Below, piece after piece: positions 1 to 53,797 of a stretch of 64,000 nt of DNA; within the stretch, counting starts at the first letter, position 1; every line of letters starts with the position of its first letter. Location of the stretch: contig JABSQZ010000020.1 in the NCBI GenBank assembly GCA_013215505.1, positions 1 through 64,000 of the forward strand. Reading direction: 5' to 3'. Below the pieces are notes generated by a model. That model was not told the origin of the DNA, made no database searches, and saw nothing but the letters and a program-made list of their open reading frames with translations. The translations under genes were made by a program, and so were the position numbers. This DNA is from Oceanospirillaceae bacterium (lineage in GTDB: Bacteria > Pseudomonadota > Gammaproteobacteria > Pseudomonadales > Balneatricaceae).

Positions 1-1039
1 GGATCGGCTCTTCTACAATGGCATTGCGGAAGGGGTTGTGTGTCTGGTCGAATTCGAAGTGTGGCGACCTGGCTTCATGAGCATTGGGGGCGGGTGGGAT
101 AATCGCGTGAAAATGCAGACCGGCAGCCATGGCGATATTGGTACCCCACACGTGTGGAACCAAACGCACATGATGTATTTCAGCCAGGGTAATAATTTTT
201 CTCACTTCCGTTAAGCCACCGACTCCACAGACGTCCGGTTGAATAATGTCAACGCTCTGTTGCTTGAGTGCTTCATTGATGCCCCAGCGGCTGTGCCAGG
301 TCTCGCCGCCAGCGACTGGGATAGGTTGGCGGTTACGCATTTCTCTGTAGCAGTTTAGCGCCTCGGGAATAACCGGCTCTTCGAACCAATCGATATCGTA
401 TTGCGCCGCCTGCTGGCCCACTTTAATGGCATCAGGCAAGTCATAACCGTGATTGGCATCGATCATTAAACTGATTTTGGGGCCTATTGCCTGCCGCACT
501 GCGGCGATAGCGGCAATATCCAATTCTATGCCAAAACCAATCTTGATTTTTAAGGCTTTAAATCCCTGCGCCACATAGGCGCTAGTCTCTGCGATTAAAG
601 ACTCTATCCGGTCTTTGCCAACCATGCGAAAGCCGCCGGTGGCGTAGGCGGGTATCTCTTTGCGATAGGCACCGCCAAGTAATTGATAGATAGGTTTGTC
701 GTAATATTTACCCGATAAGTCCCAGAGTGCAACATCTATACCGCTGATGGCGGTAAGGGTAGCGCCGCGCTGTCCCTGATCACGAAACTGGCTGTACAGC
801 TCATTCCATATTGGCTCAATGTCTAATGCCTGCTTGCCTATTAACAGAGGGGTCATCATCTTGACGATGGCGACATTGATATCGGCGGGCCCCAGGCACT
901 CACCCCAGCCCACTAAGCCGTTATCGCAGACAATTTCAACCAGCATGTGGCGCCTGTTGTAGAAGGTAGAAAATGCCGATTGAAAGGGCTGGTCTAAGTC
1001 GTGGTGCAGAATGTGAGTATGGACCGCGGTAATTATCAT
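1..1039 (-). CDS. gci: Galactarolactone cycloisomerase, enolase superfamily (3' end outside window)
   Basis: Read directly from the minus strand; the ATG is at 1037-1039 and the frame stays open to the left edge, about 346 codons. Enolase-superfamily landmarks are visible: a K-x-K motif in KIKIGFG near residue 166, metal ligands in MIDANHGYD (about 194), WFEEP (about 220) and VAGGETWH, then the catalytic His region VPHVWGTN. The text closely follows my memory of the Agrobacterium Gci protein (about 378 residues), for example in RGATLTAISGIDVALWD. That enzyme opens galactaro- and glucarolactones to 3-deoxy-2-keto-hexarate. Adjacent kdgD and nearby udh supply the steps after and before it. A glucarate or galactarate dehydratase is the alternative, but the neighbours favour Gci. 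Confidence 0.85.
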   Translation of the reverse strand, partial: MIITAVHTHILHHDLDQPFQSAFSTFYNRRHMLVEIVCDNGLVGWGECLGPADINVAIVKMMTPLLIGKQALDIEPIWNELYSQFRDQGQRGATLTAISGIDVALWDLSGKYYDKPIYQLLGGAYRKEIPAYATGGFRMVGKDRIESLIAETSAYVAQGFKALKIKIGFGIELDIAAIAAVRQAIGPKISLMIDANHGYDLPDAIKVGQQAAQYDIDWFEEPVIPEALNCYREMRNRQPIPVAGGETWHSRWGINEALKQQSVDIIQPDVCGVGGLTEVRKIITLAEIHHVRLVPHVWGTNIAMAAGLHFHAIIPPAPNAHEARSPHFEFDQTHNPFRNAIVEEPI

Positions 1040-1111
1040 TGATGGCTTCTCATAATAGAAAGTTGATGGGCGTTTGATTGCAATCAAACGCCAGTGTTTC
1101 TCGATGGACAG

Positions 1112-2029
1112 CTAGCTGTACTTACTCACAACAGCTTTTAGCATTTCCAGTTCTTCACCGGTTAAATCAGTTAGCGGTGAGCGAACCGGACCCGGGTCAC
1201 GACCAATGGCGGTAAGTCCCGCTTTAACAATAGAGACTGGGTAGCCGTTGGCGCGATCTCTGATCTTGGCAAATGGATAGAAGAAATCCTTCAGTACTGT
1301 TTCCATATAGGCGTTGTCTTTATTGCGCATCGCCTGGAAAAATTGCAGCGCCATTTCAGGGACAAAGTTAAAAACAGCAGATGAATAAGTAGTAACCCCC
1401 ATGGCGTCGTATGCTTGTGCAAACATTTCATGTGTTGGCATGCCGCCGATGTAGACCAATCTGTCACCCAGTAGTGAAGTGATCTCACGTACTGTGTTGA
1501 TATCGCCAGTGCCGTCTTTAAAGCCGATTAAGTTAGGGCAGGCCTCTGCTAAGCGTTGTACCGTTGCAGCTTTTACCACTGAGTTTGCGCGGTTGTAGAT
1601 AATCACACCGATATCAATGCTGTCACACACCGCTTTAATGTGGTTGAACAGCCCCTCTTGTGTCGCGCCAATCAAGTAGTGGGGGAGCAATAACAGGCCA
1701 TCGGCACCTTTAGCTTGCGTCGCCTGAGCAATTTCAATCGCCATGCGGGTGCCATATCCGCAACCGGTGAGGATAGGGACATCGCCTGCTACTTCTTTAG
1801 CGGCTTCTACAATGATGGGGATTTCCTTGGGCGAAAGCGAAAACAACTCTCCGGTACCGCCGGCGGCAAATAAGCCTGCAGCATCGAATTGCGTCTGCCA
1901 GGAGATGTGATCTTGATAGGCTTTTTTGTCAAAATCAAAAGTATTCTTGTCAAAATGAGTGACCGGGAAAGACAGCAGCCCAGAGCTGATTTTTTGTTTT
2001 AGATCGGAATAATGCATTCTAAAGTCCAT
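1112..2029 (-). CDS. kdgD: 5-dehydro-4-deoxyglucarate dehydratase (KdgD)
   Basis: A 305-residue TIM-barrel protein of the DHDPS/NAL family. It should dehydrate and decarboxylate 5-keto-4-deoxy-D-glucarate to 2-oxoglutarate semialdehyde in the cytoplasm. Visible landmarks are [11 protein letters not shown] near the N-terminus, the phosphate/carboxylate-loop region [10 protein letters not shown], the conserved Tyr in IIYNRAN and the Schiff-base Lys in IGFKDGTGD. Length fits the family (about 300). Met5 (position 2017) may be the true start: it has a GGA 7 nt upstream and matches the usual N-terminus, while Met1 has no clear ribosome-binding site. It lies downstream of the GntR gene and just upstream of gci on the same strand, so both are probably co-transcribed. 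The semialdehyde dehydrogenase that would finish the route is not in the window. Confidence 0.9.
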
Positions 2030-2102
2030 AGCGAAGAGTGGGATGTAAGTGTTATTACCAACAATGCTATAGTTATAATATATCTACACCAATAATGTCA
2101 AT

Positions 2103-2117
2103 AGTCATATGATGACT
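2103..2117. promoter_or_regulatory. Dyad AGTCAT-ATG-ATGACT in the kdgD promoter region, candidate GntR operator
   Basis: A perfect 6-bp inverted repeat with a 3-bp spacer lies between the GntR gene and kdgD. Its core TCATATGAT is repeated upstream of dctP at 2951-2959. FadR-type GntR proteins bind short palindromes of this size, and the two copies sit in front of the two transcription units the neighbouring regulator would be expected to control. Assignment to this regulator is inference. Confidence 0.45.
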
Positions 2118-2128
2118 GGCTGTGCCTG

Positions 2129-2866
2129 CTAACTCTGTTTTCTTTGCACTAGTCTTGCAAGTGCCCGGTAGCGTTTGGATCCACCGTTTAAATGTGATTT
2201 CATGGCCTTACGTGCACGTTCCGGATCTCTGTCTGCGATAGCGTCAATGATTTCTTTATGTTCGTCATCAAGTCTTGAGTCAATGTCCGATACAGGCTCT
2301 ATTCCCGCCTCCTGCTGCAGTCGGGCACGGGGTATGGTTTTCTTTCCCAGCAAGGTTAGAAAGTCTACAAAGTGTTGATTGTTAGTGGCTTTTGCAATAG
2401 CGACATGCAGTTCGAAATCTTCTTGCTCAGTGTTCTGTTGCAGCTCTTTTTTGTCCTTAAAGGCATAATAACACTCAAATATATCCATTTCCTGGGCGGG
2501 GGAACAGCGTATTGCAGCGAGCCCTGCGGCCTCTATTTCAACGGCTGCTCGCAGCTCAAGAGCCTCAATAGTGTCTGAAATTTTATGCGAGTTTTGCAGC
2601 AGTAAATTGAGTTTTCCACTGTTTTTCGGTGGTTCAGTGATGAATACCCCAACGCCGTGTCTGGGTTCTACCAGGCCTGCTGCCTTAAGACTGGCAATAG
2701 CTTCGCGAATCACGGTACGACTGACACCCAGCTGAGCGATGAGTTGTTTCTCGGTGCCAAGTTTGTCGCCGCTCTTTAGTTCCCCAGACTCAATCTGCAG
2801 TTTAATTTGAGAAAATAGCTTGTGAGTTAGGTTTTCTCTGGGTTTTTTTGTATTCTTTTTGGTCAT
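2129..2866 (-). CDS. FadR-family GntR transcriptional regulator of the hexuronate genes
   Basis: About 245 residues. The N-terminal winged helix-turn-helix reads LGTEKQLIAQLGVSRTVIREA, followed by the wing sequence VEPRHGVGVFI. The C-terminal half is an alpha-helical FCD ligand domain, with the usual spaced Asp and His ligands suggested by DFELHVAIA and later DDEHKEI and MKSHL. The start at 2866 is chosen because GGA precedes it by a normal distance; an ATG two codons upstream is also possible. It sits between kdgD/gci and the divergent TRAP operon. A uronate or hexarate-lactone effector is the natural guess, but the sequence does not show the ligand. Confidence 0.85.
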   Translation of the reverse strand: MTKKNTKKPRENLTHKLFSQIKLQIESGELKSGDKLGTEKQLIAQLGVSRTVIREAIASLKAAGLVEPRHGVGVFITEPPKNSGKLNLLLQNSHKISDTIEALELRAAVEIEAAGLAAIRCSPAQEMDIFECYYAFKDKKELQQNTEQEDFELHVAIAKATNNQHFVDFLTLLGKKTIPRARLQQEAGIEPVSDIDSRLDDEHKEIIDAIADRDPERARKAMKSHLNGGSKRYRALARLVQRKQS

Positions 2867-2949
2867 TAGCATGTTCCATGGTAAGAAATCGTTATTTTAC
2901 TACTGAAATGTAAAACAAAATAATAAGAGATATTATGACTTGTCTATTG

Positions 2950-2959
2950 ATCATATGAT
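2950..2959. promoter_or_regulatory. Palindrome ATCATATGAT upstream of dctP, candidate GntR operator
   Basis: A perfect 10-bp palindrome between the GntR gene and dctP. It shares the nonamer TCATATGAT with the dyad at 2103-2117. The same decamer also occurs inside an unrelated acetyltransferase gene at 32740-32749, so the motif alone is not decisive; position is the main argument. Confidence 0.4.
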
Positions 2960-3038
2960 TTCTATGTGTAATCCTATCTGTCTTCCGATCATCACTTTAC
3001 GTAGTCGGATCACACAAAGCAACTCGAGGATAATAAAA

Positions 3039-4034
3039 ATGATAAATGCACTCTCTAAAAAAATTATTGCCACTGCAATTCTTGCAGCTAGTGTTGCGCT
3101 GATTAGCGCACCAGTATCAGCCGGCGATTGGAAAGGCTGGAATATCCACGGTAAAGATTACCCAGTGGGTATAGGCATGGAAAAATTCATTGAGCTGGCA
3201 TCCGCTAAAACCGATGGCCGTGTAGGCGGTAAAGTATTCCATGGCGGCGTACTGGGAAGCCAGGGCGATGCTATTTCGCAAATGCAGTTGGGCGGAATTG
3301 AATTTGCAGGATTCAATCTGGGGCCACTAGGCAACGCAGTACCAGAGTTAAATGTATTGTCTCTGCCTTTTATCTTTAAGGATATGGAGCATATGCACCG
3401 TGTAATGGACGGTGAAACCGGCGATATTTTGAGTGCGGCAATGCGTAAGTCTGGCATTATGGCGCTGTCTTGGTACGATTCTGGTGCTCGCTCTTTTTAT
3501 AACAACAAAGGCGTTGTTATCAACAAGCCTGCGGATCTCAAAGGTTTGAAATTTCGTGTAATGGGCAACCCTTTATATGTCGATATGGTAGAAGCACTGG
3601 GTGGCAATGGTATTCCTATGGCTTACTCTGAAGTTTATTCATCACTTAAAACCGGTGTGATAGACGGTGCAGAGAACAACTGGCCTTCTTTCGAGTCAAG
3701 TGCTCACTATGAAGTGGCAGGTAACTACTCACTTTCTCAACACTTGATCTTACCAGAGTGCATTTGTGTCAGTGTTAGTGCTTTTGATGCGCTGTCTGAC
3801 GAAGATCAGAAAAGCGTCAAGGAAGCGGCGGTAGCATCCGCTGTACTGCAGCGTTCTGAGTGGGCCAAACGGGTTGAAGTGTCTAAAGCAGCAGTGCTTA
3901 AATCGGGTGTTAAGTTCAATGAAATCGCCGATAAGTCTGCTTTCCAAGCATTGATGGCGCCGGTCTATGAAGGTGCAGTTAAGAAAAATCCAATCCTTAA
4001 AGAGCTAATCGCGGGCATTAAAGCAGTCGATTAA
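3039..4034 (+). CDS. dctP: TRAP transporter periplasmic substrate-binding protein (DctP family)
   Basis: 331 residues from the ATG at 3039, which is preceded by GAGGA at 3026-3030; an upstream in-frame start at 2940 lacks such a site. A signal peptide covers roughly residues 1-28 (a hydrophobic IIATAILAASVALI followed by PVSAGD). The mature part has the DctP architecture, including the conserved RVMGNPLYVDMVEALGGNGIPM region, whose Arg normally binds the substrate carboxylate, and EVYSSLKTGVIDGAENN. It should capture an acidic sugar, most likely a hexuronate, in the periplasm for the DctQM permease encoded downstream. It is divergent from the GntR gene. Confidence 0.9.
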   Translation: MINALSKKIIATAILAASVALISAPVSAGDWKGWNIHGKDYPVGIGMEKFIELASAKTDGRVGGKVFHGGVLGSQGDAISQMQLGGIEFAGFNLGPLGNAVPELNVLSLPFIFKDMEHMHRVMDGETGDILSAAMRKSGIMALSWYDSGARSFYNNKGVVINKPADLKGLKFRVMGNPLYVDMVEALGGNGIPMAYSEVYSSLKTGVIDGAENNWPSFESSAHYEVAGNYSLSQHLILPECICVSVSAFDALSDEDQKSVKEAAVASAVLQRSEWAKRVEVSKAAVLKSGVKFNEIADKSAFQALMAPVYEGAVKKNPILKELIAGIKAVD

Positions 4035-4047
4035 AGCTTAAGAAATG

Positions 4048-4235
4048 CTACTGGCTAGCCTCTGGTCCAGTAGTGCCTGAATCCGTCGCTTCAGAATTGA
4101 TAGCCAGTGTAGATATTGGTTTTGCGTTGGAATTGAAAATCTTAGCTGCACCCATAGGTTCAGCGGGTGTTTTTTGAACCGCCGTATAATCAAGAGCTTG
4201 TGCTAAGTGCTGCATTGAAATCACGGATTCAGGCA
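4048..4235. repeat. Structured spacer between dctP and dctQ: hairpin plus 13-bp terminal inverted repeats
   Basis: The 298-bp dctP-dctQ gap holds a hairpin with arms CTACTGG (4048-4054) and CCAGTAG (4067-4073). Directly after it come perfect 13-bp inverted repeats, TGCCTGAATCCGT at 4074-4086 and ACGGATTCAGGCA at 4223-4235, enclosing 136 bp. No U-tract follows either structure. The minus strand is open for 62 codons across the interval, but it would start with TTG and resembles nothing I know, so I do not call it a gene. Intercistronic structure that favours dctP over dctQM expression, or a small mobile relic, are both possible. Confidence 0.4.
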
Positions 4236-4332
4236 AAGATTAAAAGGTAGCATAGCTTAAAACAGTGGGGCTTTGGCAAAGTAGTAATATTGCGCTCTGT
4301 CCCACATATAAGAACAAATATAAGAGTTAGTC

Positions 4333-4890
4333 ATGGAAAAACAGAAAATTTTACATCCCTCTGTGGAGCGATGTTTAGATACCCTGGCCGCCGTAGGGAC
4401 CTTGGTGTCAGCGCTGTCTCTGATTGTGCTTGTCTCTACTTTTGGCTGGTTAGTTTACGGCCGCTACATACTAAACGATTCCCCCACTTGGGTTGAGCAG
4501 TTAGCACTGTTAATGATGATTACTATTACCTTTATGTCTTCGGCGACAGGTATTCGCGAACGTACCCACCTTGCGGTAGATATTATACCTATGCTCTGTG
4601 GTCCCAGAGTCAAAATAGTATTGAGATTAATATGCGATCTGATTCTGTGTGGATTCGGTGTTCTTATGGCTCTCAAGGCCAATGAATTGTTGCAGTTTAC
4701 CTGGAGCCGGGAAATCCCTCTGTTGTCCGTCCCCGAGGGAGTGCGTTATATCCCGGTAATTATTAGCGGTGTATTAGTGGCGCTCTTTTCTGCGACTAAT
4801 GTGCTTAGTGGCGCCATCTCATTGTTTACCTATTCAGATGCAGTTTTGCATAAAGACAGATCTGAACCTAAAAATAAGGCCGAGGAATAG
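4333..4890 (+). CDS. dctQ: TRAP transporter small permease subunit (DctQ family)
   Basis: 185 residues with four predicted membrane helices, at roughly residues 18-45, 55-75, 92-115 and 135-158. This is the usual DctQ topology. The conserved WVEQLALLMMITITFMSSATGIRERTHLAVD matches the family region that follows the second helix. It sits between dctP and dctM in the normal order. A GAGGAA next to its stop codon serves as the ribosome-binding site of dctM. It should form the membrane complex with DctM for sodium-driven uptake of the DctP-bound substrate. Confidence 0.88.
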   Translation: MEKQKILHPSVERCLDTLAAVGTLVSALSLIVLVSTFGWLVYGRYILNDSPTWVEQLALLMMITITFMSSATGIRERTHLAVDIIPMLCGPRVKIVLRLICDLILCGFGVLMALKANELLQFTWSREIPLLSVPEGVRYIPVIISGVLVALFSATNVLSGAISLFTYSDAVLHKDRSEPKNKAEE

Positions 4891-4894
4891 TTGT

Positions 4895-6178
4895 ATGGGT
4901 TTATTAATTTTACTGGGCTGTTTTGGCTTAATGTTAGTCATAGGCATGCCCGTTGCCTATGCACTAGGCATCGCGGCACTGTCCTCATTCGTCTATGAAG
5001 GGATCCCACTGCTCATAGGTTTTCAGCGTATTGTCTCTGGTGTTTCGGTATTTTCATTGCTGGCTATTCCGTTTTTTATCTTTGCCGGCGAGCTAATGTT
5101 GCACGGTGGTATTGCCGCCAGATTAGTCAGTTTAGCATCCTCAGCGGTCGGCTGGGCGAAGGGCGGGTTGGGGCAAGTTAACGTTTTTTCCAGCATGTTA
5201 TTCGGCGGTATATCAGGGTCTGCGGTCGCCGATGTCTCGGCGCTGGGATCACTGCTAATTCCAGTGATGAAAGAAAAAGGTTACAGCGCCGAGTATGCGG
5301 TGAATGTCACAGTGACCTCTTCAGTGGCCGGGATAATGATTCCCCCCAGTCACAATATGATTCTGTTTGTAGTGGCTGCCGGCGGTGGTATCTCGGTATC
5401 CAGTTTGTTTATGGCAGGGCTTATTCCCGGCATTTTAATGTGCTTGTGTCTGGGCTTCGCCGCCAGATGGGTGGCAATTCGCAACAACTATCCGACTGAG
5501 AAATTTCCGGGTTGGAGTGTGGTGCTGTACGCTGCAATTACCGCTTTCCCAGGTTTGTTTACCGCGGTGATCATCGTGGGTGGCGCTCTTTCCGGTGTCT
5601 TTACGGTAACAGAATCCGGCGCTATCGGTTGTATCTACGCCATAGTGGTCTGTCTTTTGGTGTATCGTTCACTGTCCTGGCAGGGCTTTATTACCGCGGT
5701 TAAAAATGCGGTACGCACCACAGGCATGGTAATGATTTTAGTCGCCTGTGCCTCGGCTTTCGGTTATATGTTAGTGCTTTATGATGTGCCGACTGAACTG
5801 ACCAATTTTCTCCACGCTATCTCTGATAACCCTATCATTATATTGCTAATGATGAATCTTATGTTGTTGCTGTTGGGTATGATCATGGACATGAGCGCGC
5901 TGATCCTTATCTGTACACCTATCTTTTTACCCGTGGCGGCGGGCTTAGGTATGGATCCGATCCAGTTTGGTGTCATGCTGATGATGAACTTAGGCTTGGG
6001 GCTGTGTACACCACCTGTCGGTAGTTGCCTGTTTGTCGGCTGCGCCATTGGAGGGGTGCCAATACAAAATGCAGTACGTACTATCTGGCCTTTTTACTTA
6101 GCAATATTACTGACGCTAATGTTAATTACTTTTGTGCCTTCGGTGTCAATGTTCCTGCCTAATCTGTTAAACGATTAA
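4895..6178 (+). CDS. dctM: TRAP transporter large permease subunit (DctM family)
   Basis: 427 residues starting at ATG 4895, five bases after the dctQ stop and preceded by GAGGAA. The open frame extends further upstream over dctQ, but that part is not DctM-like. About a dozen hydrophobic helices are visible, with family motifs such as GISGSAVADVSALGSLLIP and SVAGIMIPPSHNMI in the first half and GLCTPPVGSCLFVG near the end. It forms the translocation channel of the TRAP system. Substrate is inferred from the neighbouring uronate enzymes only. Confidence 0.93.
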   Translation: MGLLILLGCFGLMLVIGMPVAYALGIAALSSFVYEGIPLLIGFQRIVSGVSVFSLLAIPFFIFAGELMLHGGIAARLVSLASSAVGWAKGGLGQVNVFSSMLFGGISGSAVADVSALGSLLIPVMKEKGYSAEYAVNVTVTSSVAGIMIPPSHNMILFVVAAGGGISVSSLFMAGLIPGILMCLCLGFAARWVAIRNNYPTEKFPGWSVVLYAAITAFPGLFTAVIIVGGALSGVFTVTESGAIGCIYAIVVCLLVYRSLSWQGFITAVKNAVRTTGMVMILVACASAFGYMLVLYDVPTELTNFLHAISDNPIIILLMMNLMLLLLGMIMDMSALILICTPIFLPVAAGLGMDPIQFGVMLMMNLGLGLCTPPVGSCLFVGCAIGGVPIQNAVRTIWPFYLAILLTLMLITFVPSVSMFLPNLLND

Positions 6179-6284
6179 AAGAACAGCTTAATAGAAAAAT
6201 GTTTGGGCATTTATCTTGGTTTTCACTCTCCGGCAATTGCTGATATGTAGTTGTTGGGGGAGTTTTTAGTTATTTGGAGTTATG

Positions 6285-7079
6285 ATGAAACGTATACTAC
6301 TTACTGGTGTCGCCGGTAATTTAGGAAAAATTGTTCGCGTAAAGCTGGCCGGTTGGGCGGATGTTATGAGGCTTTCTGATTTGAATGAGATCACTGATGC
6401 CAGTGCCACCGAAGAGGTTCAGTGCTGTGATTTAGGGGATAGGGAAGCGGTCATGAAATTGGTTGAGGGCTGTGATGGCATCATCCATTTAGGGGGTATT
6501 TCCACAGAAAATACCTTTGACTCAATTCTTAATGGCAACATTGTCGGCACCTACAATTTGTACGAAGCAGCCCGTAAACACGGTGTTAAACGTATACTGT
6601 TTGCCAGCTCTAACCACACTATTGGTTTCCATGAGCGCGAAACACAGCTGGATGCAGATTCAACAATGCGTCCAGACAGTCTTTACGGTGTCTCAAAGTG
6701 TTACGGTGAAATGTTGGCCAGTCTCTATTATGATAAATTTGGCATAGAAACAGCTCGTGTTCGCATCGGCTCCTGCTTTGAAAAGCCATTAGACAGACGC
6801 ATGCTGGCGACTTGGTTGAGCGCCGATGACTTTGTCTCTCTGATCAAGCGTATCTTCGAGTGTGATCGCTTAGGTTGCCCTGTGATCTATGCTGCTTCTG
6901 CCAATGCAGAGCAGTGGTGGGATAACAGTAAAGTGAGCTACATAGGCTGGCAGCCAAAAGACAGCTCTGAAAAATTTGCGCAACAAGAATACCTGCAAAA
7001 GCGCGCTGTGAATGCAAATGATCCGGCTGTTCGCTATCAAGGTGGTGGCTTTGCAAGTGCTGGACACTTTGAAGATTAA
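6285..7079 (+). CDS. udh: Uronate dehydrogenase (NAD-dependent)
   Basis: 264 residues of the extended SDR/epimerase type. The Rossmann motif is LLTGVAGNLG at the N-terminus; the active-site Tyr and Lys are in YGVSKCYGE, and the conserved IHLGGIS and FASSNHTIG stretches are present. The sequence follows my memory of Agrobacterium Udh (265 residues) along its length, including the GCPVIYAASAN and WWDNS segments. It oxidises galacturonate or glucuronate to the aldarolactone, the substrate of Gci. The start at 6285 is preferred to the ATG at 6282 because of the GGAG spacing. It lies about 100 bp after dctM, so it is probably in the TRAP operon. Confidence 0.92.
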   Translation: MKRILLTGVAGNLGKIVRVKLAGWADVMRLSDLNEITDASATEEVQCCDLGDREAVMKLVEGCDGIIHLGGISTENTFDSILNGNIVGTYNLYEAARKHGVKRILFASSNHTIGFHERETQLDADSTMRPDSLYGVSKCYGEMLASLYYDKFGIETARVRIGSCFEKPLDRRMLATWLSADDFVSLIKRIFECDRLGCPVIYAASANAEQWWDNSKVSYIGWQPKDSSEKFAQQEYLQKRAVNANDPAVRYQGGGFASAGHFED

Positions 7080-35207: not shown

Positions 35208-35320
35208 GCGGCTTCTCAACCATAAAAGTATTTCCCCAGTAGCTAGCAGCCATCAGGGGGGCATTAACTATGCCTGAGTACACTTGAGCAATGATCAATG
35301 TTCAGTTATTAATCAGTGAC

Positions 35321-35355
35321 TTCCAACTTCCAACTTCCAACTTACGACTTATGAC
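35321..35355. repeat. Heptamer array TTCCAAC, 3 exact plus 2 diverged copies
   Basis: Three TTCCAAC units (35321-35341) are followed by TTACGAC and TTATGAC. TTCCAAC is the reverse complement of the GTTGGAA heptamer repeated 13 times at 48215-48305. The diverged units form the last codons and the stop of the GFA-family gene. Confidence 0.8.
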
Positions 35356-46578: not shown

Positions 46579-46662
46579 TAATCCTTAATCCTTAATCCTT
46601 AATCCTTAATCCTTAATCTTTAATCTTTAATCCTTAATCTTTAATCTTTAATCTTTAATCTT
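46579..46662. repeat. Heptamer array, 12 copies of TAATCYT
   Basis: Twelve consecutive 7-bp units with no gaps: units 1-5 and 8 are TAATCCT, units 6, 7 and 9-12 are TAATCTT. The array overlaps the stop codon of the HD-GYP gene (TTA at 46655-46657 on this strand). Confidence 0.92.
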
Positions 46663-48103
46663 TAAACTCTAATGCGATCTCAACAAACCTCTGTTCCAGC
46701 TTTAAAAATACATCGATTATGGTCGGGTCAAAATGACTGCCATTACCTTCAATGATAATAGATTTTGCTTTGTCATGGCTAAAAGCTGGTTTGTATACCC
46801 GTTTGGTAATCAGTGCATCATAGACATCTGCCAATGCCATCAGGCGACCTGATAGGGGGATTTTCTCTTCCCTGAGGCCATTTGGATAGCCGCTACCATC
46901 CCACTTTTCATGATGGGTAAGGCTGATATCCCGGGCGACAGACAGAAATGAGGTACCGCCTGAATCGCCTTTGGCTCGCTCCAGCGCGTCGGCACCTATC
47001 TGCGGGTGCTGTTTCATAATAGAAAATTCTTCATCCGTTAACTTGCCGGGTTTTAGTAAAATGCTATCGGGTATTCCCACTTTGCCAATATCGTGTAATG
47101 GTGCCGACTTGAACAGCAATTCTATGCTGTAGTCATCCAGTTCAGCAGCGTATTTGGGGTTTTTCCTCAACTCCAGCGCCAGTGCTTTAACATAATTTTG
47201 GGTGCGCATTATATGCCCGCCGGTCTCGTTATCGCGGGTTTCTGCCAGTGTCGCTAAGCTGAGAATACAGATATCGCGGGTCAGGTTTATCTCGCGACTC
47301 TGCTCGGTCAGTGCCGAGATCATCACATTAGTATGCTGGGCTATAAGGCCAAACTCATCGTTGCTGATAACCGCGACCTGAGAGGATAAATCACCACGAG
47401 TGACTTGCGTTAAGACGCAGTTTTGGGTGCTGATAAACGCTTTTAAATTTCTTGAGTAAGACAGAATAATCAGCAATACGTAGGCCATCATCACACAGAT
47501 GACAAATATTACTTCCCCGAGGATATAAGCTTTGGCCATTTTCAGGTCAATGCCTGGGTCTCTGTTTATCAACCAATGCAAATCCTTGTTGATGACTAAT
47601 ACCACCACAAAGACAATTGATAACAGGCAGATGGTGGCGAACCAGCTAAATTTTTTGGTCAGCGGATAGGGGTTGTTATCCGGTGTTAAGTGTCGATTAG
47701 ATTTTTTCAGCGCTGTACCTATGTTGAATTCTCTAAACAGTGATAAATCACAGCTGATAAAAAATCCCAAAATGATGATACCCAGCAGGACTTTTATTTC
47801 ACTTTCCAGTGGGAAGTTATGTACTACTTTGTTATAGCCTGCCAAAGCCAGGGCAATGCCGGTAAATAATACTAAATCCAATATAAACTGATGTTTAGCT
47901 TGTTTTTTTAATTCCACATTACTCAGCTTCTGCTCCAGGGAGAACCTTGCCAGCAATGCCAGACAAAACATGATTAAGATAGGGGCAAGTAGGGCAGTTA
48001 AGCTTAGGGACTCTATAAATGGACAGACGTTAATGCCGTATACCGCGAATATTAGGGCGGCAAGTGCGTAGTGACCAGTGCTTCTGATTAATGTTGAATT
48101 CAT
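46655..48103 (-). CDS. Membrane-bound HD-GYP c-di-GMP phosphodiesterase
   Basis: 482 residues. About seven membrane helices in residues 8-225, with a HAMP-like linker (residues about 225-275, LTQVTRGDLSSQVAVISNDE). The HD-GYP domain follows: TRDNETGGHIMRTQNYV, the HD pair in SAPLHDIGKVGIPD, HHEKWDGSGYPNG for the GYP triad and ALADVYDALITKRVYK. It should hydrolyse c-di-GMP at the inner membrane; the signal sensed is unknown. It is divergent from the curli-like locus, consistent with control of surface fibres by c-di-GMP. Its stop codon lies within the heptamer array. Confidence 0.92.
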   Translation of the reverse strand: MNSTLIRSTGHYALAALIFAVYGINVCPFIESLSLTALLAPILIMFCLALLARFSLEQKLSNVELKKQAKHQFILDLVLFTGIALALAGYNKVVHNFPLESEIKVLLGIIILGFFISCDLSLFREFNIGTALKKSNRHLTPDNNPYPLTKKFSWFATICLLSIVFVVVLVINKDLHWLINRDPGIDLKMAKAYILGEVIFVICVMMAYVLLIILSYSRNLKAFISTQNCVLTQVTRGDLSSQVAVISNDEFGLIAQHTNVMISALTEQSREINLTRDICILSLATLAETRDNETGGHIMRTQNYVKALALELRKNPKYAAELDDYSIELLFKSAPLHDIGKVGIPDSILLKPGKLTDEEFSIMKQHPQIGADALERAKGDSGGTSFLSVARDISLTHHEKWDGSGYPNGLREEKIPLSGRLMALADVYDALITKRVYKPAFSHDKAKSIIIEGNGSHFDPTIIDVFLKLEQRFVEIALEFKD

Positions 48104-48608
48104 GGTGTCTCAGTAGATAATTAATGGCGATCAGAGGTTTTACAAGCAAGCTAAATGCCTCTATATTTTACCCAAATAACATGGGATAGGCATTAAGAAT
48201 AAGTGGGGTAATTAGTTGGAAGTTGGAAGTGGGAAGTGGGAAGTGGGAAGTTGGAAGTTGGAAGTTGGAAGTTGGAAGTTGGAAGTTGGAAGTTGGAAGT
48301 TGGAAGTTGTGGGGGGCGTTGGGGTTTTTGAGAATGTTGCTGTTGGGCTCTAGCTACTCTGTATTTATCAGTGGGATAGGAATCTGTTAAGTTATATGAA
48401 CATAATATAAATTACTTTCATTTCTGTTGCTTTAGATATACTCTAACTCGGTCATGGATGATAAACACAATAGACTTCATAAAAATGAGAATAAAGTAAG
48501 TGCAAATTGTTGGCGCACTCGTTGTCCCTCAACTGATTGAAATCCAGCGTAACTCTGAAATGATGTAGCTATTTTTTTCTTTTATATTAAGGATAGGATG
48601 AATTAAAA
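48104..48608. other. Divergent spacer between HD-GYP and the curli-like operon
   Basis: 505 bp containing the 13-copy heptamer array and, after it, AT-rich DNA that presumably carries the operon promoter (for example TTATATGAACATAATATAAAT near 48,392). No gene seen. Confidence 0.4.
48215..48305. repeat. Heptamer array, 13 copies of GTKGGAA
   Basis: Thirteen gapless units: two GTTGGAA, three GTGGGAA, then eight GTTGGAA. The reverse-complement heptamer occurs at 35321-35341. It lies 304 bp upstream of the curli-like first gene and 111 bp upstream of the HD-GYP start. Confidence 0.95.
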
Positions 48609-49109
48609 ATGAGAAATTTCACGTGTATTTCTGTCGCTTTGCTTCTTGCATTGCCCGCTGTCGCTATGGCTGATGATTATATGATAAATCAGAACATTAA
48701 CATTTTAGATTTAGGAGACATCACACAGTCAAGAGGTGGCAGTAACATACAGGCACTTAACAACGCAGAACTTAATTCAACCTCTGGAAAGGTCGAGCAG
48801 AAAGCTGTATTTACCAATTTCAATGCTATACAAACTAAGGGGGCTGAAAATTTACAAGCTATCAACAGGGTAGTATTAGATGATACTGGACATGGCACTA
48901 GAATCGTTCAGGAAGTGGAAGCCGATGTCATAAGATTGACACAAGAAGGCGGCAATGATAATCAGCAAGCTGCTAACTATGCAGAATTTGCAGGCGATGC
49001 TCATTTTGTGTCTATTGCTCAGACTGTCAGTGCTGATGATGTTTACATGAAGCAAATTGGCGGTAATGATAACTTGCAAAGTCTGAATAGTATCAAATTG
49101 CTGAGATGA
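48609..49109 (+). CDS. Curlin-like repeat protein, candidate secreted amyloid subunit
   Basis: 166 residues. Signal peptide at about 1-21 (ISVALLLALPAVAMA, cut before DDYM). The mature part has four exact copies of Q-x2-G-x2-N-x-Q-x2-N, starting at Q40, Q75, Q112 and Q149, so spaced 35, 37 and 37. Between them a second strand-like unit recurs around Q64, Q101 and Q138. Curlin repeats use Gln and Asn ladders with Gly turns in the same way, but with a period of about 22. No cysteine after the signal peptide. The stop overlaps the next start (ATGA). A CsgG-like gene completes the unit. I infer a functional-amyloid subunit; other repeat adhesins are possible. Confidence 0.65.
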   Translation: MRNFTCISVALLLALPAVAMADDYMINQNINILDLGDITQSRGGSNIQALNNAELNSTSGKVEQKAVFTNFNAIQTKGAENLQAINRVVLDDTGHGTRIVQEVEADVIRLTQEGGNDNQQAANYAEFAGDAHFVSIAQTVSADDVYMKQIGGNDNLQSLNSIKLLR

Positions 49110-49438
49110 AACCGTTTATAATTTTACTTATCTCATTTATAGCACAGTTATCATGGGGGGAGGGGAACTCAACATTCCCCAAAATCCCCCTCCCTGATAA
49201 ATCATACAGTGCTAGAAACATGATCTCTCAAGCTAAAGTGACTAGGTCGGAGACTAAGACTGACGGCTATAAAGTAACAGGTCCTGATGGAAAAGAGTTT
49301 TTTGTTGATGATATAGACCATCCCACTAAAGCTTTTTACGGTGTTTATATCGATTTTGATAATGACGATATTTTACAATCTCAGATAGATATTGAAATAA
49401 ATATCGATATTGACAGTATAAATTTCTTTGGATTATAG
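49106..49438 (+). CDS. Small secreted protein of the curli-like locus, unknown family
   Basis: 110 residues with a signal peptide at about 1-18 (FIILLISFIAQLSWG). The mature protein is about 90 residues and acidic at the end (FDNDDILQSQIDIEINIDID, about 79-98). I do not recognise it as CsgE, CsgF or CsgC. Its four-base overlap with the curlin-like gene and the eight-base gap to the CsgG-like gene place it firmly in the operon. It may be an accessory or chaperone factor of fibre export. Confidence 0.6.
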   Translation: MKPFIILLISFIAQLSWGEGNSTFPKIPLPDKSYSARNMISQAKVTRSETKTDGYKVTGPDGKEFFVDDIDHPTKAFYGVYIDFDNDDILQSQIDIEINIDIDSINFFGL

Positions 49439-49446
49439 GGTTTGTT

Positions 49447-50328
49447 ATGAAATATCAGGTCTTTGTTTTGTGTTTTATTTTTTTTATTGAAGGCTGTAGT
49501 AATACACAAGTCGCATTTCAAAATGTCAGTTCAGTGCCTGTTAAATCAACCACGAGTTTAAGCAATGTTTTAGCTTGTACCAAAGAAAAAATAGCGACGC
49601 ACAACCAAAATACCGCCTACCTTATTATCGTAAGAGAGATGGTTGACGGCACTGTCAGAGAGAGAAGTACCAGTGATGGGCCGCTTGGCGATGCAGGAGT
49701 GCATCAGTTACAAGGCGCATTGGTTAGCTTATTAACCACTGAAAAAGCGATAATTGTTGATAATCAGCCATCAATGTTTTCAAAGTACAATAGAGGATCC
49801 ATTGGCTTAAATAAGTTCGGAGTACCCAAGAATGGGGCGCAACTTGCCTATAAAGAATCGATGTTAAATTATGTTAATGCCATAAGAACAGGTAAGGGCA
49901 TCCGATCTGCAGAGTCTATTGTTATTTTAACGGTATCGGGCGCTTTTACGCGGATAGACTCCGCCAACCTAGCTAATGATGGATACGGTTTAACTTTCGG
50001 GGCTAATGGTAGCGGTGGTAAAGGAGATCTTGAATTTGGCACATCTGTGTCTAAGAAAGTCATTTCTTTAAGTATAAATTTAATCAGACCTATGCTTAAT
50101 ACCGTTATCAAGTCCCAATCATTCGATCTTGAATTTTCTAATTCATCCAAAAAATATAATCTTAAAGGGACTGTAGGAGAAGTTGATTTAGGTTTAGCGC
50201 TTTCCAATACAAGTATAGAAAGTATGCACAGTGCCCAGCAAACTTTAATCGATGCCTCAGCTATCTGGCTGGTTGAAAGTCTTTTTTCTGGGGCTACGAC
50301 ATCGTGTTTAACTGCAGAAATAGTATAG
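49447..50328 (+). CDS. CsgG/HfaB-like outer-membrane lipoprotein
   Basis: 293 residues. The N-terminus MKYQVFVLCFIFFIEGCSNT carries a lipobox-like IEGC (Glu at -2 is unusual), predicting a lipidated Cys17. In the middle, VILTVSGAFTRIDSANL and the following Gly-rich strand FGANGSGG resemble the CsgG core, where GA-x-T-x-x-D-S is followed by a Gly-rich hairpin. Further matching strands ISLSINLIRPMLNTVIKSQ and a final helix MHSAQQTLIDASAIWLVE are in CsgG order. Length is close to CsgG (about 277) and HfaB. CsgG forms the outer-membrane export pore for curlin. This is fold-level recognition by eye, so moderate certainty. Confidence 0.6.
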   Translation: MKYQVFVLCFIFFIEGCSNTQVAFQNVSSVPVKSTTSLSNVLACTKEKIATHNQNTAYLIIVREMVDGTVRERSTSDGPLGDAGVHQLQGALVSLLTTEKAIIVDNQPSMFSKYNRGSIGLNKFGVPKNGAQLAYKESMLNYVNAIRTGKGIRSAESIVILTVSGAFTRIDSANLANDGYGLTFGANGSGGKGDLEFGTSVSKKVISLSINLIRPMLNTVIKSQSFDLEFSNSSKKYNLKGTVGEVDLGLALSNTSIESMHSAQQTLIDASAIWLVESLFSGATTSCLTAEIV

Positions 50329-50449
50329 CTGATGGTAGAGAGTTTTCTGCAGATAGCGGCACAAAGCTATTTCAACTAGCAGACGGTTTATGAAGTAGCT
50401 CGCTGCTCAATAACTTTTAGAGTGCTGCGCTGATCAGTAGAAAGCCAAC

Positions 50450-52219
50450 TTACACTCCTCTTCGCTGCAACATCTGCAAAATCTGGGTAAAGATTGAATT
50501 TTCCATTTTATCCGGGATCTGCAAGGCTAAGCTGTGACGATAGTAAGGGCTCAAGTCCAGTCCAAAGCCCAGGGCATAGAGTTCGATATCAGCGCTGTTC
50601 TCCAACATAGTGGCCACCTGGCGCAAGTGGTTGTCCAGATAGTTGTTAGTATTAGTCTGATGGGTGGCGCTCTCCATCGGGCAGCCATCGGATAAGACGA
50701 TTAATATGCGTCGCTGTTCTGGTCTTGCCTGCATACGCTTTGCCGCCCACAGCAGTGCTTCTCCATCGACCCCCTCGCGAAATAAATCAGCCTTTAACAT
50801 TGCCCCTAAGCCCCGCTTAGCCCGTTGCAGTTTTGTGTCGGCATCTTTGTAAATAATGTGGCGGGTTTCACATAAACGGCCGGGGTTTTCTGGACGCATT
50901 TGCCGCATCCACTGTTTGTAGCTTTTACCTCCCTGCCAGGATTTAGTGGTAAAACCTAACACTTCGGTACTGGCTCCCGCCATTTCCAGAGCTTTAGTTA
51001 AAATGTAGATAAGCGTAGAAATAGCGTGAATGTGCTCTTTCATCGAGCCTGAATTATCCATCAACAGTGTCACCAGGCAATTACCGCTGGGCAGCTGCCG
51101 CTGGCTGCGAAATATATTGCGGTAGCCTGGAGTAGTGACAATGGTATTTAATTTACGACCATCTATGTAGCCCTGTTCGAGTGAAAACTCCCAGCCGCTA
51201 TCTTGCTCTCCAGGGAGGATCGCCGCCAGTTCACGGGCTAATCGAGGGATATTAATCGCTTGGTTTTTCAGTAATTTTGCCTGTGTTTTACTGAAATCAT
51301 CTAGCTGCGAGTTTAAAACCAGCTGCTCGGCTTTAACAATTTGGTCATTGTTGCGGGTAAATATTTGATAGTTGTTCAGCTGCTCGATTATCTGTCGCAC
51401 AGCAGTGCTATCAGGTCTTTTTCCCGCCACTGAAATCTCGCTGTTGTCATCGGTTTCAGGTTCCAGAAATAAGCTGAAACTTGCCCCAGAATTATTAGCA
51501 GCGCTCTCGCTTTGTTCGGTATCAGCATCGCTATCGTCAATCAGACTATCCATCACTTCAACAATGACTAACGCATGGCGGGCAAAGACAGCTTGATCGC
51601 GGGTGTTCTTACGCATTCCCATCAGGGCACCGCCTATGTGCCTGGCGATCATCATGCGCATCGACTCGATTAAATCTTCGCTCTGGTGATTCATTGGTAA
51701 ACTGGTAAGGCGGCACCAGACAACCTGAGCGACAGTGAATACCATTAAGCCCATTTGGTTTTCGACCGTGTCAGAGGCGCAAAATTGGCGGCACCACTGA
51801 CGAAATCGATGCTCGAGATTGTTTCGGGTTCCAGGCTGTAAATCGCTGACCAGTGATTCAGTGCGCAATTGTTCTAATAGTTCAAACACCAGCTGGCCAA
51901 TGTTACTCTTTGGCATTAATTGCTGGTGCAGTTGTGCATCACTGTGTTTGAGTCGCAGAGCAATGGCATCTGCGGCACCGCGAAAAGATTGATAGTTATC
52001 TCGGGTTAAATCAGGGCGCAAATGCGGCGCTCGTATCTGCGCCGATTGGCCATTAACTTCTGGACGCTGACCGCGAAATTGAAAACTACTACAGCCGCTA
52101 TTGGCGCGAACAGTCGCGCTGCAGAGCTTTTCTACATGTTGCTGTAGTTTCTCTATGCGCATGTCCGGGTTGTCGATAGGCGCCTTGTCGGTATTTTGCA
52201 GAGTATCAGTGACGGCCAT
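50450..52219 (-). CDS. cobT: CobT-like VWA-domain subunit of aerobic cobaltochelatase
   Basis: 589 residues. A CobT N-terminal region with an acidic linker (about 225-260, DDSDADTEQSESAANNS) precedes a C-terminal VWA domain. The VWA metal site is complete: LLMDNSGSMKEH, then Thr in LGFTTKSW and Asp in VLSDGCPME. With CobS it forms the chaperone part of cobalt insertion into hydrogenobyrinate diamide. It overlaps the end of cobS by 14 bp. Neither cobN nor other cobalamin genes are in the window. Confidence 0.85.
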   Translation of the reverse strand: MAVTDTLQNTDKAPIDNPDMRIEKLQQHVEKLCSATVRANSGCSSFQFRGQRPEVNGQSAQIRAPHLRPDLTRDNYQSFRGAADAIALRLKHSDAQLHQQLMPKSNIGQLVFELLEQLRTESLVSDLQPGTRNNLEHRFRQWCRQFCASDTVENQMGLMVFTVAQVVWCRLTSLPMNHQSEDLIESMRMMIARHIGGALMGMRKNTRDQAVFARHALVIVEVMDSLIDDSDADTEQSESAANNSGASFSLFLEPETDDNSEISVAGKRPDSTAVRQIIEQLNNYQIFTRNNDQIVKAEQLVLNSQLDDFSKTQAKLLKNQAINIPRLARELAAILPGEQDSGWEFSLEQGYIDGRKLNTIVTTPGYRNIFRSQRQLPSGNCLVTLLMDNSGSMKEHIHAISTLIYILTKALEMAGASTEVLGFTTKSWQGGKSYKQWMRQMRPENPGRLCETRHIIYKDADTKLQRAKRGLGAMLKADLFREGVDGEALLWAAKRMQARPEQRRILIVLSDGCPMESATHQTNTNNYLDNHLRQVATMLENSADIELYALGFGLDLSPYYRHSLALQIPDKMENSIFTQILQMLQRRGV

Positions 52220-53204
52220 CAGCCATCACCTGATTTGCTCTGCTAGCCCAGGATTCAGTCAGTTCCATATCGAAACAGCGCTGGAAAAACTCGGCGATAA
52301 TTGCTCGCTCGGCCTCGTCGCACTTGTTTAGAAAAGAAAGTCGAAAGGCCACTGCTGGATCATCAAAGATATCAATATTCTCAGCCCAGGAGATCACGGT
52401 CCGCGGTGACATCAAGGTTGAGATATCACCAGCTGCAAAACTATTGCGGGTCATTTTCGCCACTTCCAGCATCGACATGATCAGTGAGTCCGGGATAGCG
52501 TTGGCGAAATTTTTGCACTTGCCGCGGATAATCTGCAGCTCATCCTCAGCCGGTAAATAACTTAAATTTGTCACTATATCCCAGCGATCCATCTGCGCCT
52601 GGTTGACCATCTGGGTACCGTGATAAAGGCCGTTGCTGTTACCTAAACCTATAGTGTTAGCTGTGGCGAAAAGCCTAAATTGTGAATGTGGGGTGATGAC
52701 TTCATTTTGATCGAGCAACGTAAACTTGCCGTCGCGCTCCAGTAATCGCTGAATGACAAACATGACTTCAGGACGCCCGGCATCAAACTCATCAAAGATT
52801 AGCGCGGTGGGGCGGCGCAGCGCCCAAGGTAGTATTCCCTCCTGAAATTCAGTGATCTGCTTGCCATCGCGGATCACTATCGTATCTTTACCCACCAGAT
52901 CCAGACGGCTGATGTGTCCGTCTAAATTGATGCGCACACAGGGCCAGTTGAGACGCGCCGCTATTTGTTCTATGTGGGTCGACTTACCAGTGCCGTGTAG
53001 TCCCTGCACCATCACTCGACGATTTCGGCTGAAACCAGCCAGGATAGCCAAGGTTACTTCTGGATTAAATACATAATTCGGGTCAATTTCCGGCACGTGC
53101 TCATCGGCATAACTGTATGCCGGTACCTTTAGTCGGGAATTAATTGAAAAAACCTCACAGACCGATAGCATTAAGTCTGGTTGATCTATTTGAATGTCTG
53201 ACAT
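52206..53204 (-). CDS. cobS: CobS-like AAA+ ATPase of aerobic cobaltochelatase
   Basis: 332 residues from ATG 53204, preceded by GGAAG; this equals the length I recall for Pseudomonas CobS. The frame is open to 53240, but the extra 12 residues are not family-like. Walker A is GLHGTGKST at about 68-76, Walker B ALIFDEFDAG, and sensor region LFATANTIGLGN. It works with CobT as an AAA+ ring that drives metal insertion by CobN. cobT follows with overlap. If CobN is absent from the genome, the pair may serve another chelatase-like complex. Confidence 0.9.
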   Translation of the reverse strand: MSDIQIDQPDLMLSVCEVFSINSRLKVPAYSYADEHVPEIDPNYVFNPEVTLAILAGFSRNRRVMVQGLHGTGKSTHIEQIAARLNWPCVRINLDGHISRLDLVGKDTIVIRDGKQITEFQEGILPWALRRPTALIFDEFDAGRPEVMFVIQRLLERDGKFTLLDQNEVITPHSQFRLFATANTIGLGNSNGLYHGTQMVNQAQMDRWDIVTNLSYLPAEDELQIIRGKCKNFANAIPDSLIMSMLEVAKMTRNSFAAGDISTLMSPRTVISWAENIDIFDDPAVAFRLSFLNKCDEAERAIIAEFFQRCFDMELTESWASRANQVMADGRH

Positions 53205-53797
53205 GTACGCTTCCATGATGAGAATTACTAGCTTAAACAATTATATAAGCAGTTTCTGCAAGTACCAGAACCAGTGGTAGAGAATCGATATGGCCAAGGG
53301 CATTCATCTCTGGATCTACACTTTGTTAAAAATTGGCCTTTGCTTCAAGGGTCGCAAATTTCTAAGCTATAGTCGGTAATGGGAACTGTATAGAAATTAT
53401 TTAAATTCTAATCGCTTTAAAGGGTACAGTTTAAGTTTGAGCGACAATGGCTGTCAATAAGCAGGTCGTAAAACAGTTTTTTATATAGTTTTTAATATAT
53501 TAGCTGGTAATGATGAGAACCTGCCGACACCTTTAAATCATTTATTAGTGTTATCAAGTATAACATTAACAAAGAATTAATATTGCTTTCATGGACTTAC
53601 TCGAACAATTACAGTGTTAAAACCCTGCGACCAGTTACATGCTATATTTTATATATGAGTATGATATAACCTTATAACCAAAAATAATGATAATAAAATG
53701 TTCTAGCCTTAAACATTAATCTGATAGCGCGAAGCCCGTTTATGGCTTTGCATTATTGGCGTTAATCTTAGTGATAGACACAGCTTGGACCACCAAA
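53205..53797. other. Divergent spacer between cobS and soeA
   Basis: 593 bp, AT-rich. I looked for a cobalamin riboswitch upstream of cobS and found no B12 box. A short stem GCGAAGCC / GGCTTTGC at about 53,728-53,750 precedes soeA; its role is unclear. No ORF or repeat. Confidence 0.35.

Follow-up and report, generated by a model that had tools for sequence, protein, structure and literature searches.

Two outer-membrane routes are well described for bacterial functional amyloids, namely the CsgG pore of curli and FapF, a pore of a different kind, which belongs to the Fap system of Pseudomonas together with the repeat proteins FapB and FapC. Curlin repeats have a mean length of 23 +/- 5 residues according to a passage in PMC10192328, and the minimal curlin repeat is given as X6QXGX2NX10 in part of PMC3521004. 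The repeats of FapB and FapC are mostly 38-39 residues long, with a single cross-beta layer formed by each repeat of FapC, in the portion of PMC12392863 that describes them. For the Caulobacter holdfast anchor, an excerpt of PMC6707917 reports that HfaA is similar to CsgA and HfaB to CsgG.

Here we describe three adjacent genes, designated P1, P2 and P3, from a 64,000-nucleotide stretch of DNA (the window) of an Oceanospirillaceae bacterium. Our best reading is that they constitute a rare curli-type export system, with a predicted CsgG fold in its lipoprotein and a repeat class of its own.

Gene layout and conservation

The trio spans positions 48609-50328, and all of the features described for it lie on the forward strand. 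P1 (48609..49109) is an ORF of 166 amino acids encoding an exported Q/N-rich repeat protein of 3.5 units, which is a putative amyloid-like subunit. P2 (49106..49438; 110 amino acids) encodes a small exported protein and candidate CsgF-like coupler, and P3 (49447..50328; 293 amino acids) a lipoprotein with a predicted CsgG fold, which is a putative outer-membrane export pore. P1 and P2 overlap by the four bases ATGA (49106-49109). These three ORFs, the overlap and four repeat motifs in P1 spaced 35/37/37 had been reported in an earlier, sequence-only reading of the same DNA, and each was confirmed.

The whole trio is present in three of the seven same-genus genomes. Identity to the window copy in the two same-genus homologues is 63-66% for P1, and 80-84% for both P2 and P3. 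Among the three copies dN/dS is 0.07-0.26 for P1 (where synonymous sites are partly saturated, with dS up to 2.8), 0.15-0.26 for P2 and 0.10-0.12 for P3, compared with 0.06 for the neighboring CobT. With dN/dS well below 1, all three genes are under purifying selection, and they are real, conserved genes.

Neither P2 nor P3 has any match in Pfam or NCBIfam at E values up to 10, and over the same range P1 has only a sub-threshold match to DUF4148 (E 0.31) in its signal-peptide part. Pfam profiles for CsgE, CsgF, CsgG and curlin find no match in the trio, in keeping with the earlier remark that no csgE or csgF is recognizable here. No paper in the open-licence PMC literature was recognized as describing the P1-P2-P3 gene set, which is weak evidence that the set is missing from the published literature.

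The repeat protein P1

P1 begins with a signal peptide recognized by eye (48609..48671; residues 1-21), and the N-terminus of P2 is signal-peptide-like by the same standard. The strict motif Q-x2-G-x2-N-x-Q-x2-N occurs four times, starting at residues 40, 75, 112 and 149 and so spaced 35/37/37: motif 1 lies at 48726..48761 (residues 40-51), motif 2 at 48831..48866 (residues 75-86), motif 3 at 48942..48977 (residues 112-123) and motif 4 at 49053..49088 (residues 149-160). When the mature sequence was shuffled 2000 times, four motifs never arose. The homologues of P1 occupy the same place in the two same-genus loci, L046 and L047, and both keep all four motif positions despite being only 63-66% identical to the window copy.

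The curlin pattern, a unit of about 23 residues with Q-x-G-x2-N, was not found in the window P1, whose unit is 35-37 residues; Q.G..N occurs nowhere in this protein, and once and twice in its two same-genus homologues. The FapC motif N-x3-G-x2-N-x-Q-x-N is absent from all ten repeat proteins tested, and the core G-x2-N-x-Q is common to the window P1 and FapC repeats. When the P1 profile was compared with FapC repeats the observed score was reached by 7 of 200 shuffles, and with curlin repeats by 13 of 200; these likenesses are suggestive only. We take the P1 repeats as a class of their own, near FapBC in length. The repeat unit had been described earlier as unusually long, which stands in comparison with curlin but is not unprecedented, since FapB and FapC repeats are given as mostly 38-39 residues in the relevant part of PMC12392863.

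A structure model of P1 made from three sequences is all beta and unreliable (pLDDT 40, pTM 0.35). No PDB match to this model attains E 0.001. Among its 115 weak matches FapC comes first (E 6.2e-3, probability 0.13) and the CsgA fibril second (E 0.36, probability 0.03), and we treat this ranking as a hint only. Searches of PDB sequences with P1, and with the P1 of the distant locus L049, returned nothing relevant. The amyloid nature and beta-solenoid form proposed earlier for P1 are kept here as putative, as the all-beta model is of very low confidence.

The lipoprotein P3

The lipobox of P3, recognized by eye, is IEGC (49486..49497; residues 14-17). Glutamate at position -2 relative to C17 is atypical, and relatives have GGC or IGC; the GC is invariant in all seven aligned P3 homologues. 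A structure model made from five sequences has a mean pLDDT of 63.3 and a pTM of 0.67. In a Foldseek search of 350,542 PDB chains with this model, the 12 best chains are all CsgG (E 2.8e-6 to 6.2e-5, probability 1.00), although their TM-scores are low (0.32-0.44). HpaA (E 7.9e-5), FlgT (8.9e-4), PelC (3.0e-3) and GNA1162 (3.4e-3) come after CsgG. P3 is therefore listed here with a predicted CsgG-like fold, as the sequence-only reading had supposed from its core strands.

That reading had also proposed a profile search of P3 against CsgG, and this did not bear the relationship out. P3 has no match to the Pfam CsgG profile (PF03783) at E 10, and a PDB sequence search with P3 returned nothing relevant. 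Against a profile of curli CsgG, for which 25 of 30 loci were used and five longer than 400 amino acids excluded, the P3 profile scores 32.3 (P 0.0017), compared with a maximum of 26.0 in 200 column shuffles. However, the score falls to 15 without the first 20 columns, which hold the signal peptide and lipobox, and therefore rests on these two elements. We consequently rejected the comparison as sequence proof that P3 is CsgG.

Two membrane hairpins are presumed at 49960..50202 (residues 172-252), in the segments that separate and follow the model's long strands; they are called presumed because residues 172-201, and with them the first hairpin, fall below pLDDT 50. A gap of 43 residues separates the anchor strands in three P3 proteins including that of the window, and one of 46 in three distant homologues; it is 34 in 19 of the 22 measurable curli CsgGs, so that P3 has room for a membrane hairpin. 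Alternating hydrophobicity is present in the window P3, but it is weak as proof of hairpins, since the best-scoring stretches of three curli CsgG controls lie mostly outside the hairpins.

The middle protein P2

P2 is present as a single copy in the host genome, and its homologues in L034 and L035 share the motif GYxVxGPxGxxFxVDxI. Comparison with 17 CsgE proteins by hhalign detected no similarity (P 0.095). The identification of P2 as CsgF by profile comparison of mature alignments was rejected, with 79 of 150 shuffles reaching the observed score.

Prompted by a resemblance that had already been noticed, we scanned for the CsgF N-terminal peptide with a matrix from 25 same-order CsgF proteins, covering 68,916 positions in 581 ORFs from seven sources; this is the only positive CsgF result for P2. 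Sites in three distant P2 proteins rank 2, 3 and 4, with one unrelated site higher, and the peptide is missing from all three same-genus P2 proteins, that of the window included. In curli the N-terminal region of CsgF sits inside the CsgG barrel, and because the distant P2 proteins carry a CsgF-like peptide, P2 may be a CsgF-like coupler. The middle component, previously described as of unknown kind, could accordingly be CsgF-like to judge by the distant peptides, whereas the window P2 and the whole-protein comparison speak against this.

A four-gene version in a distant clade

The trio was found not only in the same genus, but also in a distant gammaproteobacterial clade (loci L042, L043, L048 and L049), where the gene grouping is kept even though the P3 proteins are only about 30% identical. 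The earlier reading had suggested looking for the trio in related genomes, and the outcome supports it. The order in L042, L043 and L049 is a long P1 (ORFs of 488-504 amino acids), P2 (143), P3 (375-377) and P4 (235-237), a second repeat protein. L048 has P3 and P4, and its P1 and P2 are unreadable because the contig starts just before P3. P1, P2 and P3 occur together in all six loci in which the three positions are readable. P4 follows P3 in four of four distant loci and in none of three same-genus loci, where cobT lies convergent downstream. The description of the system as minimal consequently holds for this genus, but not for the distant clade with its four genes, longer P1 and second repeat protein.

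P4 is clearly related to the long P1 (hhalign E 1.3e-18). The window-type P1 scores 36.8 against P4, compared with a maximum of 18.1 in 60 column shuffles, and only weakly against the long P1 (20.9 against a shuffle maximum of 19.0). Repeat units of 35-37 residues in the window P1 compare with mostly 36-43 in the distant clade. By eye, a stretch resembling [DE]-[WY]-x-[VI]-x-Q follows the signal peptide in both P1 and P4, and by analogy with the N22 region of CsgA it could be an export signal.

The P3 homologue of L048 (68-1405) has a C-terminal SPOR domain (E 1.9e-12), which is a peptidoglycan-binding module. This suggests that the putative exporter of L048 is tied to peptidoglycan.

Distribution

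P3 was found in three of 96 relatives searched, all in its own genus: the window genome, G003 and G006, the latter two being assemblies of the Osedax symbiont Rs2 that contain L046 and L047. A class-wide search of 369 genomes gave nine at E 0.1, from which we kept the host genome and two more full-length homologues, G594 (E 2.7e-51) and G689 (E 9.1e-47), and dropped six short matches (E 0.01-0.09). A scan of contigs yielded four relatives from 72 candidate stretches (L046-L049), and searches around G594 and G1103 yielded four among 119 and the same four among 145. Counting L049 as G1059 and L048 as G1103, whose coordinates match, P3 is present in seven genomes. A phylum-wide sample of 398 genomes had four at E 0.01 and provided no accepted addition, as one was the host genome and three were dropped (about 66 amino acids inside frames of 815-912). 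P3 was not found in a plasmid collection. Overall, the trio is rare and patchily distributed.

In the host genome PF03783 has no match at E 0.001, with positive E. coli and Caulobacter controls, and the curlin repeat (PF07012) has none even at E 1. Of the 293 same-order genomes sampled, 90 have a PF03783 match.

Comparison with curli, Fap and Hfa systems

Like curli, the trio encodes a Q/N/G-rich repeat subunit alongside a lipoprotein of CsgG fold (predicted for P3), with a small exported accessory protein and, in the distant clade only, a second repeat protein; P1 and P4 flank P3 there, as CsgA and CsgB accompany CsgG. Unlike curli, it is without a PF03783 or PF07012 match, its unit is 35-43 rather than about 23 residues, P2 is neither CsgE nor CsgF by whole-protein comparison, and no counterpart of CsgD, CsgE or CsgC was recognized beside it.

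The resemblance to Fap lies in unit length (mostly 38-39 residues in FapBC), in the G-x2-N-x-Q core and, again in the distant clade only, in the presence of two repeat proteins. In contrast, the FapC motif is missing from the ten repeat proteins tested. The six neighboring proteins in the window match other Pfam families, and no Fap protein, FapF included, is among them. HfaABD is comparable as a short locus combining CsgA-like HfaA with CsgG-like HfaB. However, the Pfam CsgG profile finds the Caulobacter control genome, in a match that we take to be HfaB, and misses P3. Inspection found no HfaD-like large protein or large exported ORF beside the trio, and we know of no Hfa counterpart of P2. 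By these membership tests, the best reading is that the trio works like curli, yet is not curli, Hfa or Fap as these are defined.

Proposed function and alternatives

Taken jointly, the observations make it fairly probable that P1 is a subunit exported through a CsgG-fold pore formed by P3, helped by P2, and that it forms a cross-beta fiber. Sec would move P1 (and P4) unfolded to the periplasm. P3 would be an acylated outer-membrane lipoprotein of CsgG fold forming a ring-shaped pore for the passage of P1, while P2 would couple subunit and pore, as CsgF (or CsgE) does for curli. Once outside, P1 would build the cross-beta fiber by stacking its units of about 37 residues. For the distant clade, we propose the longer P1 as main subunit and P4 as nucleator or minor subunit. 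That P3 forms a pore, that P1 passes through it, that P2 acts as a coupler and that P1 is secreted and forms amyloid fibers is what we infer from these comparisons; a function in biofilm or host contact is a guess.

P3 could instead be a pore-less lipoprotein of the wider CsgG superfamily, similar to PelC, FlgT or HpaA, and serve P1 and P2 as an anchor or scaffold at the outer membrane without exporting them. HpaA, FlgT and PelC do rank next after CsgG by fold, the model is poor in the hairpin region, and the SPOR domain on one homologue suggests a wall-bound protein. We nevertheless consider this unlikely, as the first 12 fold matches are all CsgG and those to HpaA, FlgT and PelC are weaker, the 43 residues (46 in three distant homologues) between the anchor strands leave hairpin room, and P1 and P4 have the look of exported subunits, which depend on a channel. 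Very unlikely, in our estimation, is that P1 and P4 fold into beta-solenoids at the cell surface, as adhesins or similar proteins, and form no amyloid fibers. Their regular Q/N/G ladders have no obvious capping domains, and FapC and CsgA are first and second for the P1 model, albeit at low probability. Nonetheless, the weaker matches of that model include adhesin-like, haemagglutinin-type and ice-binding beta-helices, and beta-solenoids are common in proteins forming no fibers, as a section of PMC10192328 states.

Sequence drift by itself might also explain the locus, which would then be a far-diverged curli or HfaA/HfaB holdfast-anchor locus. The predicted fold of P3 is CsgG-like, and the logic is the same as that of Caulobacter HfaA/HfaB in the available part of PMC6707917. 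However, PF03783, which finds the Caulobacter control and 90 of 293 same-order genomes, misses both P3 and the host genome, the curlin repeat has no match in that genome at E 1, and both repeat length and motif differ, which makes drift highly improbable as the whole explanation.

The preferred reading, export of P1 through a CsgG-fold P3, may be extended to a third gammaproteobacterial lineage of functional amyloids, having a Q/N unit of its own that is Fap-like in length (about 35-43 residues), a CsgG-fold pore outside the known CsgG/HfaB family, a CsgF-like coupler, a SPOR tie to the wall in one lineage and a reduction to three genes in relatives of Osedax bone-worm symbionts. We regard the chances for and against this extension as evenly balanced. 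If true, a repeat of Fap length paired with a CsgG-fold pore would mean that pore type and repeat geometry can recombine, that the CsgG family reaches beyond profile detection, and that a three-gene system is available for testing pore, coupler and subunit together. The two relatives that are Osedax symbiont assemblies raise a possible role in host contact as a question.

Genomic surroundings

A non-coding block upstream of P1 (48450..48511, forward strand) is a candidate regulatory region. It was recognized in an alignment of the three same-genus loci and has barely changed across three species in which P1 identity is 63-66%. Rfam has no match over 48100-50450, and promoter and terminator scans gave counts not above those of shuffles. 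Divergent to the trio is a gene for a protein with a MASE10 sensor and an HD domain (46655-48103; Pfam, window copy), and homologous ORFs occupy the same place in L046 and L047. The MASE10/HD protein may have a c-di-GMP role, and its proximity together with the conserved upstream block hints at regulation of the trio.

Three arrays of 7-base repeats are present in the window: AGTTGGA x13.7 at 48214-48309, about 300 bases upstream of P1, TAATCCT x12.4 at 46579-46673 and ACTTCCA x3.6 at 35318-35350. Tandem Repeats Finder detected no array in L046 or L047, and the array upstream of P1 is therefore recent. Phase variation by means of it is conceivable.

Downstream, a CobT-/CobS-like pair (VWA and AAA proteins; 50450-53240) is convergent with the trio and conserved in L046, L047 and G001. 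A 16-kb stretch of G001 with cobT and cobS has neither the trio nor the MASE10/HD gene. As cobT was not found in G002, G004 and G005, G001 is the sole trio-less genome with a located site. Other genes, some of them TRAP-transporter-like by eye, replace window positions 43.8 to 50.3 kb there (L057, approximately 430-6795), and the site is therefore a variable spot in the genus.
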